Below are positions 3,230-31,306 of a stretch of 63,753 nt of DNA, one piece after another; the stretch's first letter is position 1, and each line of letters opens with the position of its first letter. The stretch is taken from positions 1 to 63,753 of the IMG/VR virus record IMGVR_UViG_3300032236_000438; one strand, given 5' to 3'. The notes under the pieces were generated by a model. That model searched no databases and was not told where the DNA came from. It saw nothing but the letters and a program-made list of their open reading frames with translations. Source of the DNA: a virus. The translations under genes were made by a program, and so were the position numbers.

Positions 3230-4279
3230 GTGGCAACATTAAGTAGCCTTGCAGACCGTTTGAGGTTTGAAATTGGCGATACAGGTAAATCCTTCGTCCA
3301 TCAGGCTTTAGGTGACGGAACTACAAACCGCTTTTTGATTCCTTACGCTCCAGTAGATGGCGCTAGCCTTCTGGTCTATGTAAACGGCGCAAACGTATCC
3401 GATGCTGTTACTGTAGAAGAACTTACCGGTTATGTGATTTTTGACCATAGTCCTGCAGCAAATGCTGTAGTAATTTTTTCCGGCACTTACTATCGCTACT
3501 TTGTAGATAGCGAAATCTGCCAGTTCATTGATACAGCTTTAGGGCAACACATCGCTAACCACGCTGATGCGTATGGTCGTGGTTACACACTTGCAACTCT
3601 TCCTGGACTTGAAGAATACCCAGTAGTTATTTACGCATCAACCTTGGCGCTCTACACACTAGCCACAGATGCTTCCTTTGACATTGACATCACTGCTCCT
3701 GATGGCGTAGTTATTCCTCGTACAGAGCGTTATCGCCAGCTCATGCAGATGGTTCAAACTCGCAAAGACCAGTACAAAGAAATGTGTTCTCTTCTTGGAA
3801 TCGGTCTTTATAAGATTGACGTCTTTACATTGCGACGTACGTCTAAGACAACAAATCGTTACGTACCAGTTTATCTTCCACAAGAAGTTGAAGACCGCTC
3901 TATGCCACAACGTGCAATTCTCTCTATGCCAAGTTACGGCAGCGCAATTTCTCCTTCAGATGTACCAACATACGATTTGACTATGTACCAAGGCGATTCC
4001 TTCACTGTAGAACTTGACTTTCCGTTTGATATCAGTGGTTACAACTTTAGTTCACAGATTCGTTTGCAACCTGGAGACCCAACTATTGTTGGCACATTCA
4101 CAATCACACCAGTAGATGGAAACAACCAAAAGCTTACGCTCTCACTCACTAGTGACCAAACAACCATCATTCCAGAACGCACTTACTGGGATATTCAAGC
4201 AACCTCGGATTCTGACCCAACCTACCAAAAGACATATATGCGTGGCGCTGTATTCAACACTCGTGAGGTGACAATGTGA
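3230..4279 (+). CDS. Virion protein, neck/fibre-associated, two-part
   Basis: The frame opens at a TTG at 3203, but GTG at 3230 is preferred because ggagg sits five bases before it; this gives 349 residues. Residues 1-210 form one part (starting MATLSSLADRLRFEIGDTGK) with beta strands and a helical end, resembling head-tail joining or neck proteins. The last ~100 residues (YDLTMYQGDSFTVELDFPFD onwards) look like a separate immunoglobulin-like beta-sandwich similar to N-terminal modules of baseplate or fibre proteins. The gene is first after a strong terminator and so may begin the fibre transcript. The exact role is not known; the two-domain division is my reading. Confidence 0.65.
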   Translation: MATLSSLADRLRFEIGDTGKSFVHQALGDGTTNRFLIPYAPVDGASLLVYVNGANVSDAVTVEELTGYVIFDHSPAANAVVIFSGTYYRYFVDSEICQFIDTALGQHIANHADAYGRGYTLATLPGLEEYPVVIYASTLALYTLATDASFDIDITAPDGVVIPRTERYRQLMQMVQTRKDQYKEMCSLLGIGLYKIDVFTLRRTSKTTNRYVPVYLPQEVEDRSMPQRAILSMPSYGSAISPSDVPTYDLTMYQGDSFTVELDFPFDISGYNFSSQIRLQPGDPTIVGTFTITPVDGNNQKLTLSLTSDQTTIIPERTYWDIQATSDSDPTYQKTYMRGAVFNTREVTM

Positions 4280-25012: not shown

Positions 25013-25698
25013 CATTCATTCTTTCTGAAGATAAGGCTCTTCGTGACCTTCTTAAGGGTATGAAGGTTACAGACCAGAAAGCCGATGGAGGCACTGGCGC
25101 TCTTCGTAATGTGGACGTTTGGTTTGGTCAACCTGACCAAGAAATCCGTGCTCAGTCTTATCCTTACATCACCATTGATTTGATTGATATCTCTGAAGAC
25201 TTCCAACGTGCGATGCGTGGAAAAGTTAAGCCTGCATATCTTCCAGACCCACAGAACATGCCTCCAGTAAATGAAGGCGATGACCCAACAGCGTATGACC
25301 CAGAGCTTAATAACTGGTCTATCCATATGCCAATCCCAGTTAACATTGATTATCAGATTACTGTTTACTCACGTCAACCACGTCATGACCGTGAGTTAAT
25401 AGCGCAAATTCTTTACAAGAAGATTCCATTGCGCTTTGCAATCCTAGAGCCAGATGATGGCACTGTACGACGTTTAGATGTGCTGGATGTCTCCAAGAGA
25501 GATGTTACAGAACAAGGAAAGCGCCTATTCGTAAACACTCTTACAGTAAGAGTTTCTTCGGAGATTGCGCCAGAAACATATACCCAAGTATACAAAGCGT
25601 TGCAAGTATCGGTTGAAGGCACGGAAGGTGTGGCTGCTCCTGGAGCAACTACAAATCCTTTCACTGCCATAAATTCGTTCACTATCTCGTCACAATAA
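25009..25698 (+). CDS. Probable tail terminator / tail completion protein
   Basis: 229 residues, ATGA overlap with the gp10-like gene. The protein has an alpha/beta core: DLLKGMKVTDQ start, ALRNVDVWFGQPDQE, YPYITIDLIDISEDFQRA, then VNIDYQITVYSRQPRHDREL followed by a helix and strands. This arrangement, together with the position directly before the sheath gene, is that of tail-terminator proteins in contractile-tailed phages. Assigned mainly by order and predicted fold. Confidence 0.65.
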   Translation: MTFILSEDKALRDLLKGMKVTDQKADGGTGALRNVDVWFGQPDQEIRAQSYPYITIDLIDISEDFQRAMRGKVKPAYLPDPQNMPPVNEGDDPTAYDPELNNWSIHMPIPVNIDYQITVYSRQPRHDRELIAQILYKKIPLRFAILEPDDGTVRRLDVLDVSKRDVTEQGKRLFVNTLTVRVSSEIAPETYTQVYKALQVSVEGTEGVAAPGATTNPFTAINSFTISSQ

Positions 25699-25732
25699 CA
25701 AACCCCTACCAAACAACTAGTTAGGAGAAAAA

Positions 25733-27262
25733 ATGGCATACGCCCGTCCTGGTGTGTACATCACCGAACGTCTGCTTCCACCAGTACTCCAAGGAGGAGT
25801 AACTGCGGATGCAGCTGGAGCCGTTGTTGCGTCATTCGCACAAGGCCCAGAAGCTGTAACTCGTGTTCAGTCTTGGTATGAGTTCACCTCATATTTTGGC
25901 GGATACAACGCTGCTTACCCAGCAACCTTTGAAGTTGGAGCTTTCTTCAACAACGGAGGTAAAGAGCTCTATGTAAAGCGCATCCTTCACTCAGATGCTT
26001 CACCATCTACTGTCAACCTTCTTACCTCTTCAAGCGCTACAGTAGCAACTGTAACCTCAAAGAACTCTGGAACAGACAGCAACAAGCTTTACATCAAGGC
26101 AACTGCAGGTCAAGTTTCAGGAACATACACCTTGTATCTCTACAAGGATTCTGGTGTTGCTGATAGCTTTGCATCGCCTTCTGCTCCAACAAACACCAAT
26201 GATGACCTTCTTCTTGAGCGTTATGAGAACATCGTATTTGATGACCCAACCTCAAGCAGCTTTGCAGAAACAGTAATCAACACTGTTTCTCCAAACATCA
26301 CAATCAGTGCTAGCGCATCAGGAACACTTGCAACCACTAACTTCTACCCACTAACAGGTGGAAGCAATGGAACTGCAGTTGTTGCTGCTGACTACACAGC
26401 GTACAAGGGTGGAAGCACATCAGTATTTGAAAGCTTCTCAGCATTGGACCGTCCACTCGTAATCTTCCTTCCAGATGCAAGCTCTCTCACAAGTTCAGCA
26501 GGCATCTACACAGCTGCTGCTTCATGGGCTTCAGCAAACAAGTCATTTGTTATTGTTCAACCTCCAAAGGGTTCAGCAGTCTCAGATGCAATCAGCTATG
26601 GTTCAAGCGTAGGAACAAGCAGCTACTCAGCTACTTACTACCCATGGCTCTACATTGCAGACCCAGTCGGTCGTAGCTCAGCATCACTTCGTTTGATTGG
26701 ACCTTCTGGCGCAGTTGCCGGATTGTTCATCAAGACAGACGGCAACCGTGGAGTGTTCAAGGCACCTGCAGGTATCGGTGTTGCGGTTACTGGCGTAGTT
26801 GCAGTTGAGAAGTCATTTACTTCTGCTGACCTTGACAACATGAACTCAAGCAACACCCCTGTTAACCCAATCCGTCAGATTCCTGGCGCTGGTCTTTCAG
26901 TCATGGGTGCTCGTACATTGCTTCAAGATGGAACAGCAAACAAGTATGTCAACATGCGTCGCTCTCTTAACTACCTTGAGAAGCAACTCAACAACCTTAC
27001 TCAGTTTGCTATCTTTGAAAACAATGATGAAAACTTGTGGGCACAAATCCGCACAACCATCAACGTGTTCTTGAACGATTACAAGAACAAGGGTGGTCTT
27101 CGTGGTGCTACTGCTTCACAGGCATACTTCATCAAGTGCGATGCAGAGAACAACAATGCAACAACAATCGCAAATGGCGAAGTACATATTCAAGTTGGCG
27201 TGGCTCTCCAGTATCCTGCAGAGTTCATTGTCATTGACCTAAGTCAAAAGACTCTGGTCTAA
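25733..27262 (+). CDS. Tail sheath protein
   Basis: 509 residues, RBS ttaggagaaaaa. It begins with the sheath hallmark YARPGVYITERLLPPV and continues FAQGPEAVTRVQSWYEFTSY, GGYNAAYPATFEVGAFFNNG and ELYVKRI. The C-terminal domain has VNPIRQIPGAGLSVMGARTL, YVNMRRSLNYLEKQLNNLTQ and FENNDENLWAQIRTTINVFL. These are the conserved parts of contractile sheaths; contraction drives the tube through the cell envelope. This gene, with the tube gene that follows, establishes myovirus morphology. Confidence 0.95.
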   Translation: MAYARPGVYITERLLPPVLQGGVTADAAGAVVASFAQGPEAVTRVQSWYEFTSYFGGYNAAYPATFEVGAFFNNGGKELYVKRILHSDASPSTVNLLTSSSATVATVTSKNSGTDSNKLYIKATAGQVSGTYTLYLYKDSGVADSFASPSAPTNTNDDLLLERYENIVFDDPTSSSFAETVINTVSPNITISASASGTLATTNFYPLTGGSNGTAVVAADYTAYKGGSTSVFESFSALDRPLVIFLPDASSLTSSAGIYTAAASWASANKSFVIVQPPKGSAVSDAISYGSSVGTSSYSATYYPWLYIADPVGRSSASLRLIGPSGAVAGLFIKTDGNRGVFKAPAGIGVAVTGVVAVEKSFTSADLDNMNSSNTPVNPIRQIPGAGLSVMGARTLLQDGTANKYVNMRRSLNYLEKQLNNLTQFAIFENNDENLWAQIRTTINVFLNDYKNKGGLRGATASQAYFIKCDAENNNATTIANGEVHIQVGVALQYPAEFIVIDLSQKTLV

Positions 27263-27280: not shown

Positions 27281-27907
27281 ATGGCAACAATTCAAAATAA
27301 CCGCTCAACGTTGGCTACAGACCCGATTCGTAACTTTCGGTTCCTTGTAACCTTCCAACCTCAAGATACAGGTAACACTGCTCTTCCTAAGACAACAACC
27401 TTTGGGTTCACATCTGTCTCAGGTCTAGCGGTTACAACTGACTCTATCCCTTACCGTGAAGGTGGATACAACACCACTGTCCACCAGATTCCTGGACAGA
27501 CATCCTTCACACCTCTCACACTACAGCGTGGTGTGGTTCTTGGTTCAGACCAGAACTGGAAGTGGATGAAGCAGTTGTTCCAGACTGTACAGCAGACTGG
27601 TGGACTTGCAACAGGACGCAACTTCCGTTGCGACCTTGAGATTGCAGTTCTCAATCACCCAGTTCCATCATCAGGAGCTGACGTAGTTGCTGGTGCAGCT
27701 ACAGCTGCAGCTGATGAAGTAGCAATGCGTTTTAAGGTTTACAACGCATGGCCTACAACAGTTGCGTACTCTGACCTTAACGCTGGAGATAACGCTCTCT
27801 ACGTTGAGCAGATGACTCTTGTCCACGAAGGTTTTGACCTTAACTGGGCAACTATTACCTCAGCAAATGGCGCTACAACCGTAAACTCAGCTGCAACATT
27901 TCAGTAA
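27281..27907 (+). CDS. Tail tube protein
   Basis: 208 residues, RBS gaaggagataacta. T4 gp19-like pattern: DPIRNFRFLVTFQ near the start, FTSVSGLAVTTDSIPYREGG, then TPLTLQRGVVLGSDQNWKWM and the end ALYVEQMTLVHEGFDLNW. The tube is the rigid inner cylinder inside the sheath. Order sheath-tube is conserved in contractile systems. Confidence 0.93.
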   Translation: MATIQNNRSTLATDPIRNFRFLVTFQPQDTGNTALPKTTTFGFTSVSGLAVTTDSIPYREGGYNTTVHQIPGQTSFTPLTLQRGVVLGSDQNWKWMKQLFQTVQQTGGLATGRNFRCDLEIAVLNHPVPSSGADVVAGAATAAADEVAMRFKVYNAWPTTVAYSDLNAGDNALYVEQMTLVHEGFDLNWATITSANGATTVNSAATFQ

Positions 27908-27922
27908 TAACAAAGGATAAAA

Positions 27923-28735
27923 ATGACAAGTAAAACAATTAGTGCAGCGGTTAATCCCGCATTGGCAAACAATCTCATTAAAGAAGTTATGGCTGAAAAG
28001 CCAAAGCAAGTAGAAGTAAAGATTGTATCTCCTTCTGACACTTCAGTGACCCTCCCTGGCGGCTACATCACAGACGCTGGGGAGGTCATCACCGATGCTG
28101 AAGTTCGTGAACTTAACGGACGAGATGAAGAGGCAATTGCTCGCTCAACCAATGTAGGTAAAGCGTTCCTTACTATCTTGCAACGTGGAACTGTACGCAT
28201 TGGTGACAAGAAGGTTGATGATGAGCTCCTTAACGAGCTTCTCTCAGGAGACCGAGACATGCTCTTGCTCTCAATCTTTAAGGTCACCTTTGGTGCAGAG
28301 CCAGAGGTAGCAACCTACTGCTACACCTGTAAAGAAGCTAAGACAGTTAATGTTGATATTGACACCGATATCAAAGTCCGAAAGCTAGAAGACCCAATCA
28401 ATGACCGAGTCTTTACTGTACAAGGAAAGAAAAGCGAATTCCTCGTTCAGCTTCCTACTGGCAGTACTCAAAAGGAACTCATGTTAAGCAGCGACAAAAC
28501 AGCCGCAGAACTTAACACCATTCTTCTTGAAAAGACAGTAGTTCAGATTGATGGTGCTCCAGTACTAAGCAAGTTCAACGTACAAAACATTGGTCTTGTT
28601 GACCGTAAGAAGATTATTGAAGAAATTAACAACCGCATCCCAGGTCCACAGTTTGAGCCTCTACAGCTTACCTGCCCTGATTGCGAAAGCGAGGTAAGTG
28701 TTCCTATTAGTTTAGGGTCATTTTTTCGCTTTTAA
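27923..28735 (+). CDS. T4 gp26-like / tail assembly chaperone, zero frame
   Basis: 270 residues, RBS aaaggataaaa. It carries a split zinc-ribbon-like set of Cys (YCYTCKEAKT and LTCPDCESEV) and ends SVPISLGSFFRF. T4 gp26-like baseplate/tail assembly proteins share a C-terminal zinc ribbon followed by an FF motif. Its position between tube and tape measure is that of the tail assembly chaperones (lambda G, Mu gp41), which are usually made in two lengths by frameshifting. The stop codon lies in a short overlap with another open frame, so a longer 316-residue product is likely. Confidence 0.75.
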   Translation: MTSKTISAAVNPALANNLIKEVMAEKPKQVEVKIVSPSDTSVTLPGGYITDAGEVITDAEVRELNGRDEEAIARSTNVGKAFLTILQRGTVRIGDKKVDDELLNELLSGDRDMLLLSIFKVTFGAEPEVATYCYTCKEAKTVNVDIDTDIKVRKLEDPINDRVFTVQGKKSEFLVQLPTGSTQKELMLSSDKTAAELNTILLEKTVVQIDGAPVLSKFNVQNIGLVDRKKIIEEINNRIPGPQFEPLQLTCPDCESEVSVPISLGSFFRF

Positions 28736-28874
28736 TAGAGCTGGGTACGAAGAGCTAATGGCTGAATGGAAGCTAGTAGCTGATGAGTACCCAGGTTGGA
28801 CTCTTAGTGACATACAAGCTATGTCACGAAGAGAACGTAAGAACTGGATTGAAGTAAGCCGTATTCATATCTGA
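28716..28874 (+). CDS. Frameshift extension of the tail assembly chaperone
   Basis: This frame, +1 relative to the preceding gene, is open from just after a TAG (28713-28715) to a TGA (28872-28874) and overlaps the end of the zero frame by 20 bases. Continuing from the slip site it reads NRAGYEELMAEWKLVADEYP, then GWTLSDIQAMSRRERKNWIE, VSRIHI, adding 46 residues. The W..I..M...ER..WI pattern is typical for C-terminal extensions of tail assembly chaperones. An independent start at ATG 28758 is possible but has only a weak RBS. Confidence 0.65.
   Translation, partial: GHFFAFNRAGYEELMAEWKLVADEYPGWTLSDIQAMSRRERKNWIEVSRIHI
28730..28735 (+). other. Probable +1 frameshift site (TTT TAA)
   Basis: The zero frame ends ...TCA TTT TTT CGC TTT TAA. 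A tRNA-Phe reading TTT at 28730-28732 can slip one base forward onto TTT at 28731-28733 with full re-pairing while the slow stop codon is in the A site, giving AAT next. This is the same principle as the CUU UGA shift in prfB. The TTTTTTC run at 28721-28727 is a second candidate. The -1 frame is not the open one. Confidence 0.6.
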
Positions 28875-28885
28875 AGGGAGCAGCA

Positions 28886-31306
28886 GTGAGTGTAGTAACT
28901 AACATACAGCAGATGTCTGAAGCTGTTGATGCACTGACCCAAAAAGTAAACACTCTTAATGCTGCTGTTTCTAGCACAGCAACTACTGCTCAATCTGCTT
29001 TTGGTAGCGTCCTCAATGGCGTTGCTGCTCAAGGTGGTCAGCTTCAACTAGGCTCAACAAATACAAACATGATGGCTGGCTCTTTAGCGCCATTCAGCAC
29101 ACAGCTCCCAGCACCAACCGGAATGACAGGTGCTGCTGGTGGTGGAGCTACTGGAATGTCTGGAGCGGGAGCGCCTCCTTCTCTACCACCTAGTGCACCA
29201 TCTGCAGCTGCTGCAGGCGGTGGCGGTGGTAACCGTATGACAGGTGCTCTTGCCAAGGTAGGTGGTATTGACCCATCAACAATGGCACAAGGTGCTGGCA
29301 TTATGCAAAGCGCTATCGGTGTTGCACAGATGGCTCTTGCTCCTGTAGCTGGAGCATACGCAGCAGCGATGCCTACTGGACAGATTGTTGACTCTGCTAC
29401 TTCTTACTACCAAGCAACTTTGCGTGCTCCTGGAATGTCTCGTTCTTCAGTAGAGAGCGCAACCTTTGCTGCTATGCAAGGTGGAATGACTAGCGTTGGT
29501 TCTCCAGCAGTTGTCTCTAATATCTTAGCTAACTCTGGATTTATGCCAGGCACATCTCAGTACACACAAGCAGCACAACAAACAGCTCTTGCAGCACAAA
29601 ACTATGGAATAGAAAACTCTGCTGCAGCTAATTCTATTACTTCCATGTCACAAATGGGAATTGCAAATAACCTCTTTAACGTAGGTATTGCAACGCTAGA
29701 TGCAAACGGTAACCAGTTAAGCATGGGTGACATCACTAAGCAATTGATGAATCGTCTGTATCCTAACGGAATTAATCCAGCAGGATTAAACCGCTCAATT
29801 CAGTACGGTTCTTTCCAGAATCAGTTAGCACAGTTTGGTATCACTGACCAAACAACACAGCAACTTATCACTGGAAATGCTATGGACATTGCTTCCGGTA
29901 GAAACCCTAATGCCGTAAACAATAACGCCAATAACGCAAATCCATTAAACGCTATCATGTCAATGAACCAGTCACAGACTGGCATCCTTCAAGGCTCTGA
30001 AGCTAACGCTCTTTCAGGACTACAAACAGCAGCACAATATGTAAAAGCATTTAATGACACTATGGGTCCAATCATTGAAAGCATGGCACGCTACAGAGCT
30101 ATCCTTGAAGGCGGTCTTTCTACTAACGCTGGTCAAGGAGTGAAGGCTGGAGTATCTACCTTCTTTAGTGGCGTTAAGAACCTTGTCGGTGGTTTGGGAA
30201 CAATTGCAATGGCTGCTATTGGTGGGGGAGGAACACCTGGTTATGGTGGTACTTTTGGAGGACCAAAAGGTGGAGGAACTCCTAGCCTAAACGGAATGTC
30301 TTCTACTGCTAACCCAATGATTTCTGCCCCTTACGGTGCTACAGACTCTTCTGGTATCTGGAGCTCAACAGGCAACCAACACCAAGGTGTTGACTATGCA
30401 GTTCCTTCCGGTACTCCTGTTCGTGCAACTAAAGATGGAATTGTTTCTGGAAAAGTTCTTAGCGCAGATTATGGTCAAGCAGTTCTTCTTGAGCATAAAG
30501 ATGGTTGGTCTTCAATCTATGCTCACTTAAGCAATAAAGAAGTTAGCATTGGCTCACAGGTTCTTGCTGGTGATGAGGTTGGTAAGTCAGGCGCATCCGG
30601 TAATACCACAGGTCCTAGCCTTCACTACGAAGTATGGAAAGGCGACAACAATCCTGTTGACCCTGCTTCTCTTCCTGGTTCATTTAATTCTCCAATAGCA
30701 TCAGGTTCTCTTGCTGATGTTAGCTCAGCCGCTGGTCCAAGAGCAGTAAACCCTAATGCAGGAACTGCTGGTGACCAAGAGTTTGCTAAAGCGCTATTAG
30801 CTAAAGCAGGAATCAATGCAACTGATACAAACATTTCTGCGTTGACTACGTGGATGCATTGGGAAGGTGGAACTGCTAACAATGCGTTTAACCCACTTAA
30901 CACAACGCTGGATGCACCAGGAGCTACAAACTTTAACAAGGTAGGAGTTAAGGCTTACACTTCCTTGGGACAAGGCGTTGATGCAACATACAACACCTTA
31001 ACAGGACAAAGCGCTGATAAACGTGGTTACACAGCCATTCTTAATGACCTTAAGAATAACGCTCCATTAGACCAAGTTGTTTCAGACATTAATCATTCTT
31101 CATGGGGAACACACATTAAAGGTGGAGGAACTCCTGGAGCTGGAACCACTATTTCCAACGGCAATTCTGGTGGGGGAACTATAAACAACGTAAGCATCAA
31201 CTTAAGCATTGCACATGCAACTGACAGTGAAGCCCATTTGTTTGCTAAGAAAGTAAAAGAAATATTAGCCAATGACCACAATGTCCTAGCGATTGGAAGC
31301 TCCTGA
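28886..31306 (+). CDS. Tape measure / tail lysin with M23 peptidase domain
   Basis: 806 residues, GTG start with aaggga six bases before. Residues 1-~440 are Ala/Gly/Asn-rich and helical with hydrophobic segments, as in tape measure proteins. Residues ~485-595 are an M23 metallopeptidase: HQGVD (His499, Asp503), YAHLS (His547) and SLHYEV (His580). The usual HxH is SxH here, with Ser578 in place of the first His. The next part (LTTWMHWEGGTANNAFNPLN ... NFNKVGVKAYTSLGQGVDAT) resembles a second wall-hydrolase domain. It would set tail length and open peptidoglycan during entry. Start is coupled to the frameshifted gene upstream. Confidence 0.8.
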   Translation: MSVVTNIQQMSEAVDALTQKVNTLNAAVSSTATTAQSAFGSVLNGVAAQGGQLQLGSTNTNMMAGSLAPFSTQLPAPTGMTGAAGGGATGMSGAGAPPSLPPSAPSAAAAGGGGGNRMTGALAKVGGIDPSTMAQGAGIMQSAIGVAQMALAPVAGAYAAAMPTGQIVDSATSYYQATLRAPGMSRSSVESATFAAMQGGMTSVGSPAVVSNILANSGFMPGTSQYTQAAQQTALAAQNYGIENSAAANSITSMSQMGIANNLFNVGIATLDANGNQLSMGDITKQLMNRLYPNGINPAGLNRSIQYGSFQNQLAQFGITDQTTQQLITGNAMDIASGRNPNAVNNNANNANPLNAIMSMNQSQTGILQGSEANALSGLQTAAQYVKAFNDTMGPIIESMARYRAILEGGLSTNAGQGVKAGVSTFFSGVKNLVGGLGTIAMAAIGGGGTPGYGGTFGGPKGGGTPSLNGMSSTANPMISAPYGATDSSGIWSSTGNQHQGVDYAVPSGTPVRATKDGIVSGKVLSADYGQAVLLEHKDGWSSIYAHLSNKEVSIGSQVLAGDEVGKSGASGNTTGPSLHYEVWKGDNNPVDPASLPGSFNSPIASGSLADVSSAAGPRAVNPNAGTAGDQEFAKALLAKAGINATDTNISALTTWMHWEGGTANNAFNPLNTTLDAPGATNFNKVGVKAYTSLGQGVDATYNTLTGQSADKRGYTAILNDLKNNAPLDQVVSDINHSSWGTHIKGGGTPGAGTTISNGNSGGGTINNVSINLSIAHATDSEAHLFAKKVKEILANDHNVLAIGSS

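Follow-up and report, generated by a model that had tools for sequence, protein, structure and literature searches.

In this bacterial virus, a protein that helps to build the tail appears to be made in two versions, the second arising when a ribosome skips a single base at UUU-C. The window, which is the whole stretch of DNA analyzed here, spans an entire virus record (bases 1-63,753; length 63,753). Sequence comparison makes it highly likely that one locus in this window is a tail assembly chaperone gene that is read in two ways, with a +1 slip at UUU_CGC. The programmed +1 frameshift would very probably yield a gp26-like protein and a gp26-extension protein, analogous to the G and GT products of phage lambda. 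The mechanism is of a known kind; the gene family, the invariance of the site within it, the upstream hairpin, and the switch of shift direction appear to be new. The features of the locus are collected in Table 1.

Table 1. Coordinates of the chaperone locus, its neighbors, and its proposed recoding elements in the window
Feature	Position	Strand	Basis or remark
Tail sheath	25733-27262		upstream neighbor
Tail tube, T4 gp19-like	27281-27907	+	PF06841, E 2.1e-28
0-frame product, T4 gp26-like / PF12322 tail assembly chaperone, "G-like" form, 270 aa	27923-28735	+	PF12322 and phrog_150
GAGGT, unusually conserved nucleotides	28691-28695	+	GAG in 163/165 Glu codons
Candidate RNA hairpin, directly 5' of the E-site codon	28699-28720	+	arms 28699-28706 and 28713-28720; 7/8 pairs form in the window
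E-site codon, TTT in the window	28721-28723	+	purine-ending Leu (TTG/CTG/TTA/CTA) in most relatives
Putative shift site UUU_CGC	28724-28729	+	P-site UUU (28724-28726) to UUC (28725-28727), A-site CGC; TTT then C in 174/174
+1-frame extension, 48 aa from GCT, stop TGA 28872-28874; P2 E'/DUF6760/gp51-C-like helical domain	28728-28874	+	alignment, weak family matches
TTT TAA, slip site proposed earlier; 0-frame terminator	28730-28735	+	TTT not conserved, 12/172
Tape measure with M23 peptidase domain	28886-31306	+	PF01551, E 9.3e-28; phrog tape measure matches

As in G/GT arrangements, the chaperone gene sits between the genes for the major tail tube and the tape measure, and a second open reading frame in another frame overlaps its end, an overlap that is kept across relatives. 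The product of the first frame scores above the curated cut-off of PF12322 (T4_baseplate; E 2.5e-10, 40.8 bits, cut-off 24.5) and also matches phrog_150, a baseplate hub family (E 3.8e-8). The gene ends in GGG TCA TTT TTT CGC TTT TAA. A previous sequence-only reading of this DNA had described a T4 gp26-like gene between tube and tape measure that ends in TTT TAA, and both the reading frame and its neighbors are as it stated. The +1 frame is open over 28716-28874 and overlaps the first frame by 20 nt; past the 0-frame stop, it encodes 46 residues, reading NRAGYEELMAEWKLVADEYPGWTLSDIQAMSRRERKNWIEVSRIHI. This extension and its short overlap, also part of the sequence-only reading, were recomputed and exceed what chance would give, as the same phase recurs in all 80 loci of the first scan described below. 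The M23 peptidase domain of the tape measure occupies residues 498-593, and no tRNA genes were found within the 63,753 bases of the window.

Relatives were gathered in several scans. Viral contigs searched with the 270-aa protein as the query gave 80 loci, and every one of them continues into a homologous +1-phase extension. A profile scan also returned 80 loci, of which 25 lay on contigs seen earlier; the 55 new ones were analyzed, and a homologous +1-phase extension is present in 55/55. A scan seeded with the corresponding protein of Streptomyces phage BRock gave 80 viral and 2 genome loci, a few of which lie on contigs of the earlier sets. The extension is in the +1 phase in 81 of these 82, and the remaining locus, L173, is cut off by its contig end within the slip site. 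Six Streptomyces phage records were matched, one being a RefSeq duplicate of BRock; the four that were fetched (BRock, LuckySocke, pSt2308, and GiJojo) all have the +1-phase extension. Together, the 222 rows, minus L173, reduce to 174 distinct coding sequences. Counts of stop distances and start codons use 172 of these, two having been dropped because their segments ran off the contig. No relatives were found on plasmids. The proposal that this tail assembly chaperone gene is subject to programmed +1 frameshifting holds up in that both the phase and the short overlap are conserved among relatives.

The extension behaves as a protein-coding sequence. Differences among 276 close pairs fall 802/392/2057 on the first, second, and third +1-frame codon positions, a distribution that indicates that the extension is a translated protein. 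Six of its residues (Y7, W24, R35, E36, R37, and W40) are invariant in a chosen set of 29 sequences (29/29), and a few further loci deviate from the extension consensus, for example with Phe for Tyr or RDR for RER. Family matches are weak: DUF6760 is hit by 9/29 extensions (best E 0.0015), Phage_P2_GpE by 7/29 (best E 0.01), and the T4 gp51-like phrog_634 by 3/29 (best E 0.11). The window extension itself reaches 13.5 bits against DUF6760 (PF20546), below the curated cut-off of 27, and thus has weak similarity only. The public records of BRock, LuckySocke, and GiJojo carry the extension as a separate hypothetical protein, and that of pSt2308 leaves it without any annotation. If the frameshift is real, the extension would need to be reannotated in the first three and added in the fourth.

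The nucleotides at which the slip is proposed are strikingly constant. An in-frame UUU followed by C lies near the stop in 174/174 distinct genes. The UUU is present in 110/110 genes below 48% GC, 23/23 at 48-56%, and 41/41 above 56%, and its share of the Phe codons elsewhere in the same genes is 65%, 30%, and 3% (9/322), respectively. The conservation of UUU then C thus runs against codon usage, as expected for a UUU_C site of the PA-X-like class. Codon entropy at the shift site is 0, and it is 0.7-2.5 at other conserved columns, the exception being a single Glu column (0.09). The stop lies 3, 4, or 6 codons beyond the invariant UUU in 107, 63, and 2 of the 172 sequences, respectively. The conserved Tyr lies 7 codons from UUU_C in each of the 49 distinct sequences of the first scan, and it lies closer in the Streptomyces phages and in a small number of other sequences. 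The preceding E-site codon is a purine-ending Leu codon in 104/110 genes below 48% GC and in 59/64 at or above it; elsewhere, purine-ending codons make up 56% and 55% of Leu codons in these two sets. In the window, this codon is UUU instead, giving a run of six U. The A-site codons in the 174 genes are CGN and CAR, with a minority of CTC or CTT. A slow A-site codon does not fit consistently as a general cause of the slip, these codons being rare in part of the set (CGC 6.2 and CGG 1.5 per 1000 in the low-GC genes) and common in the rest (CAG 29.7 and CTC 32.3 per 1000). Rarity of the A-site codon thus does not account, across the set, for the pause that would drive the slip.

The sequence-only reading had placed the slip at the stop codon itself, by a mechanism like that of prfB. 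In the window, UUUU before AA would indeed let tRNA-Phe re-pair one base forward, but just 12 of the 172 distinct relatives have TTT ahead of the stop. The other 160 carry a different codon, mostly TTC (71), CTC (37), or CTG (30), with ATA, GTG, TCG, and GCT also occurring, and by inspection most of these pre-stop codons are unable to re-pair one base forward. The distance between the stop and UUU_C varies as well, and in two loci (L079 and L080) the stop has moved one codon later while UUU_C keeps its distance to the Tyr of the extension. Because the pre-stop codon is free and this distance is kept, the shared shift site is the invariant UUU_C two codons upstream and not UUU_UAA; we consider a slip at UUU_UAA quite improbable. 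An alignment of relatives, which the same reading had offered as a check, thus upholds the +1 phase and the short overlap, but not the TTT before the stop.

Two further explanations would leave the +1 phase intact without a +1 slip at UUU_C. The extension could be an independent small gene that has a start codon and is coupled to the 3' end of the first gene; this is implied by the public annotations of BRock, LuckySocke, and GiJojo, and the overlapping GTG or ATG starts of bacterial DUF6760 loci (17/20 resolved) illustrate it. The window offers an ATG at 28758, preceded by GAAGAG and in frame at extension codon 11. However, 81/172 relatives have no ATG, GTG, or TTG between the upstream +1 stop and extension codon 7, and 42/172 have none up to codon 20; moreover, UUU_C would not stay invariant under independent initiation. 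A separate start is consequently unlikely. Alternatively, the frame of a +1 shift would also be reached by a -2 shift or if transcription slipped on the run of U, and the window does have six U. Most relatives, however, read UUG_UUU_C or CUG_UUU_C, with only three U, and a -2 move from UUG_UUU would land tRNA-Phe on UGU, without pairing; this explanation is very hard to credit. A +1 slip at UUU_C is the reading that we favor.

The region upstream of the site may contain a stimulatory element. The 60 nt before it fold better than shuffled sequences in 52 representatives of less than 70% identity (mean z -1.70, s.e. 0.19), and six control segments of the same genes give z values of -0.33 to -0.67. 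Downstream, at +6 to +66, the mean z is -0.84 vs the same control range, and conserved structure was not found there. A recurrent 8-bp helix pairs positions -25 to -18 with -11 to -4 and stops immediately short of the E-site codon. In three of its pairs, both partners are third-codon positions, and these three are paired in 94/156 cells; redrawing synonymous codons per gene gives an expectation of 60.9 cells (s.d. 5.9, maximum 82 in 1000). Hairpin cells are paired in 71.4% vs 63.8%, and the covariation score is 0.311 vs 0.213, reached by 0/500 shuffles, although relatedness can inflate this score and the helix was picked from the same sequences. Every slid version of the hairpin gives a lower score. 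RNAalifold returned no consensus structure upstream or downstream of the site, and, over the hairpin as a whole, neither the number of pair types nor that of pairs with both partners changed is elevated. The 3' arm is expected to be inside the ribosome while the slip site is decoded. The hairpin could re-form behind the ribosome and favor its forward movement; if so, it would represent a novel type of 5' element that stimulates +1 shifts.

A lower stem pairing GAG with UUUC appears in many single folds, but its pairs show no excess over independence, and GAA could pair there equally well. In the low-GC genes, the codon at the GAGGT column is GAG in 104/105 vs 34% elsewhere. A second Glu column, at a long distance upstream, likewise consists entirely of GAG in the low-GC set (94/94). 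GAGGT resembles a Shine-Dalgarno sequence, yet it lies 28 nt from the slip site.

The sequences themselves show how the two frames are arranged and phased, that UUU_C does not vary, that the extension evolves as coding sequence, and that the upstream hairpin covaries; from these observations we infer that frameshifting occurs, at some rate, and what the two products do. Most ribosomes would stop at the TAA at 28733 and release the gp26-like chaperone. In a fraction of them, tRNA-Phe in the P site at UUU_CGC would slip from UUU to UUC, and translation would continue into the extension. The predicted junction peptide is ...GSFFAFNRAG..., so that the test peptide ...SFFRFNRAG... named in the sequence-only reading should be replaced by ...SFFAFNRAG... 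By analogy with lambda gpG and gpGT, the common part may bind the tape measure, and the extension may recruit tube subunits in a fixed ratio.

The fold of the predicted fusion protein was examined with an AlphaFold2 model built from a 51-row alignment of the unfused parts. The model has a mean pLDDT of 94.1 and a pTM of 0.87, and its best viral structural matches are T4-like baseplate hub assembly proteins. In a Foldseek search of the PDB, the HK97 tail assembly chaperone is the sole relevant match (E 0.47 and 0.92; probability 0.89 and 0.85). In the VIA comparison, the same chaperone (2ob9_B) aligns to residues 56-243 with a Z of 6.9, an rmsd of 3.7, and 88 aligned residues, the next row being at 4.0, although unrelated models can also reach 6.9. 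These comparisons are suggestive, not decisive, of a tail assembly chaperone fold like that of HK97 in the gp26 part. A second comparison with PDB chains gave no row centered on fusion residues 263-316, a part that it barely probed.

Known frameshifts in tail assembly chaperone genes are mostly -1. That of lambda gpG/gpGT is a -1 shift (PMC5009743), whereas the one proposed here is +1 at UUU_C, in a virus with a contractile tail and a T4 gp26-like first part. The same review lists HSTV-2 as very likely +1. Closer in kind is a TTT-CGC +1 shift proposed, as a prediction, in the chaperone gene of six genomes of HF1-group haloviruses (PMC7230728). These viruses (HF1, HF2, Serpecor1, and Hardycor2 among them) share the motif, its direction, and its gene position, with the motif conserved near the stop. 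In HF2, the chaperone gene (25028-25811) ends in AAG TTT CGC AGA TAG, with an open +1 extension. The HF1-group haloviruses are archaeal, however; the HF2 first protein has no PF12322 match, and its extension scores as noise against the window family, so that the HF2 chaperone is apparently an unrelated protein family using the same motif. In the open-access literature, TTT-CGC with frameshifting was found only in PMC7230728; no paper on DUF6760 and no report of frameshifting in gp26/gp51-type genes were found there.

A precedent for the slip itself is influenza A PA-X, for which a P-site slip was argued from peptide data and mutants, and a wider class of UUU_C shift sites was predicted (PMC3498833). 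Its site, UCC_UUU_CGU, shares with the window family a restricted E-site codon and the proposed +1 slip, in which P-site tRNA-Phe moves from UUU onto UUC. PA-X differs in coming from a eukaryotic RNA virus, in its unrelated product, and in its A-site CGU, compared with CGN, CAR, and CTY in the window family. The PRFect paper treats a general +1 motif as not established (PMC10274946). The conservation of UUU_C in 174 distinct genes, from low to high GC, offers a testable class of bacterial +1 sites and would make the UUU_C class more than an oddity of influenza and haloviruses.

The gp26 of T4, KVP40, and cyanophages belongs to the same Pfam family as the first part of the window gene (KVP40 gp26 was the one tested). 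We examined nine T4-like phages (KVP40, Vibrio 6E35.1a, S-SM2, P-RSM4, S-IOM18, Bellamy, P-SSM2, S-SKS1, and Atu_ph07), drawn from 64 and 31 matched records. In all nine, gp26 ends in NNT TTT TTC plus one codon and a stop, and a gp51-like reading frame is open in the -1 frame across the heptamer U_UUU_UUC. A -1 frameshift from gp26 into the gp51-like frame is therefore probable on this pattern, in contrast to the +1 phase of the window family. In KVP40 and the cyanophages, a small reading frame follows gp26 and precedes the next large gene; the KVP40 record says that its small frame resembles the C-terminal 40 residues of T4 gp51. In T4 itself, genes 26 and 51 are separate and divergent and are listed as coding for baseplate hub proteins. 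The -1/+1 contrast inside one gene family would give a direct view of frameshift direction changing in evolution, and T4 gp26 and gp51 would probably act as the G and T components of a chaperone for the tape measure. P2 E+E' likewise shifts -1 according to its record annotation, with an unrelated-looking first protein, whereas the shift proposed for the window family is +1; by eye, P2 E' has an F-W...E...M...E...W pattern similar to that of the window extension.

Six distant relatives that are not T4-like were also examined. An open +1 frame follows UUU_C in SP-15 (UUU_UUU_CAC), GXN1 (UUC_UUU_CGU), and LR756508 (UUU_CUA), and it follows runs of U in LIS04 and RM378; in LR756511, the second frame is -1 and has a possible start of its own. 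Homology of these six extensions to the window extension is weak or unproven. In the RM378 record, the tail tube gene (3286-3792) and its sheath and gp26 neighbors are placed on different strands.

With these cases in hand, we tentatively suggest, with slightly less than even confidence, that gp26/gp51-C could be a widespread G/GT-like module of T4-type contractile tails, its two products being kept by different recoding. These would be a +1 shift at YUR_UUU_C, with an upstream hairpin pushing the ribosome forward, in the large phage group described here and probably in SP-15 and GXN1; a -1 shift at U_UUU_UUC in T4-like cyanophages, vibriophages, and Atu_ph07; and a start codon for each part in bacterial clusters and in T4.

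Of the candidates compared with the extension profile, bacterial DUF6760 matches it best (E 6e-5, with a small set searched), and the domain is present in 53/99 genomes drawn from the order of a Saccharothrix genome. Its loci, which we take to be contractile injection clusters, have a zinc-ribbon reading frame ahead of DUF6760, and the domain has its own GTG or ATG start, so that no frameshift is needed. One such upstream frame was compared with PF12322 and gave no match. Of 20 bacterial loci, 17 were resolved by script, and in 17/17 a GTG or ATG overlaps the stop of the zinc-ribbon frame. In these loci (L251 and L253-L270; 17/20), the overlap takes the form GTGA or ATGA, with a GGGGGAA stretch just upstream.
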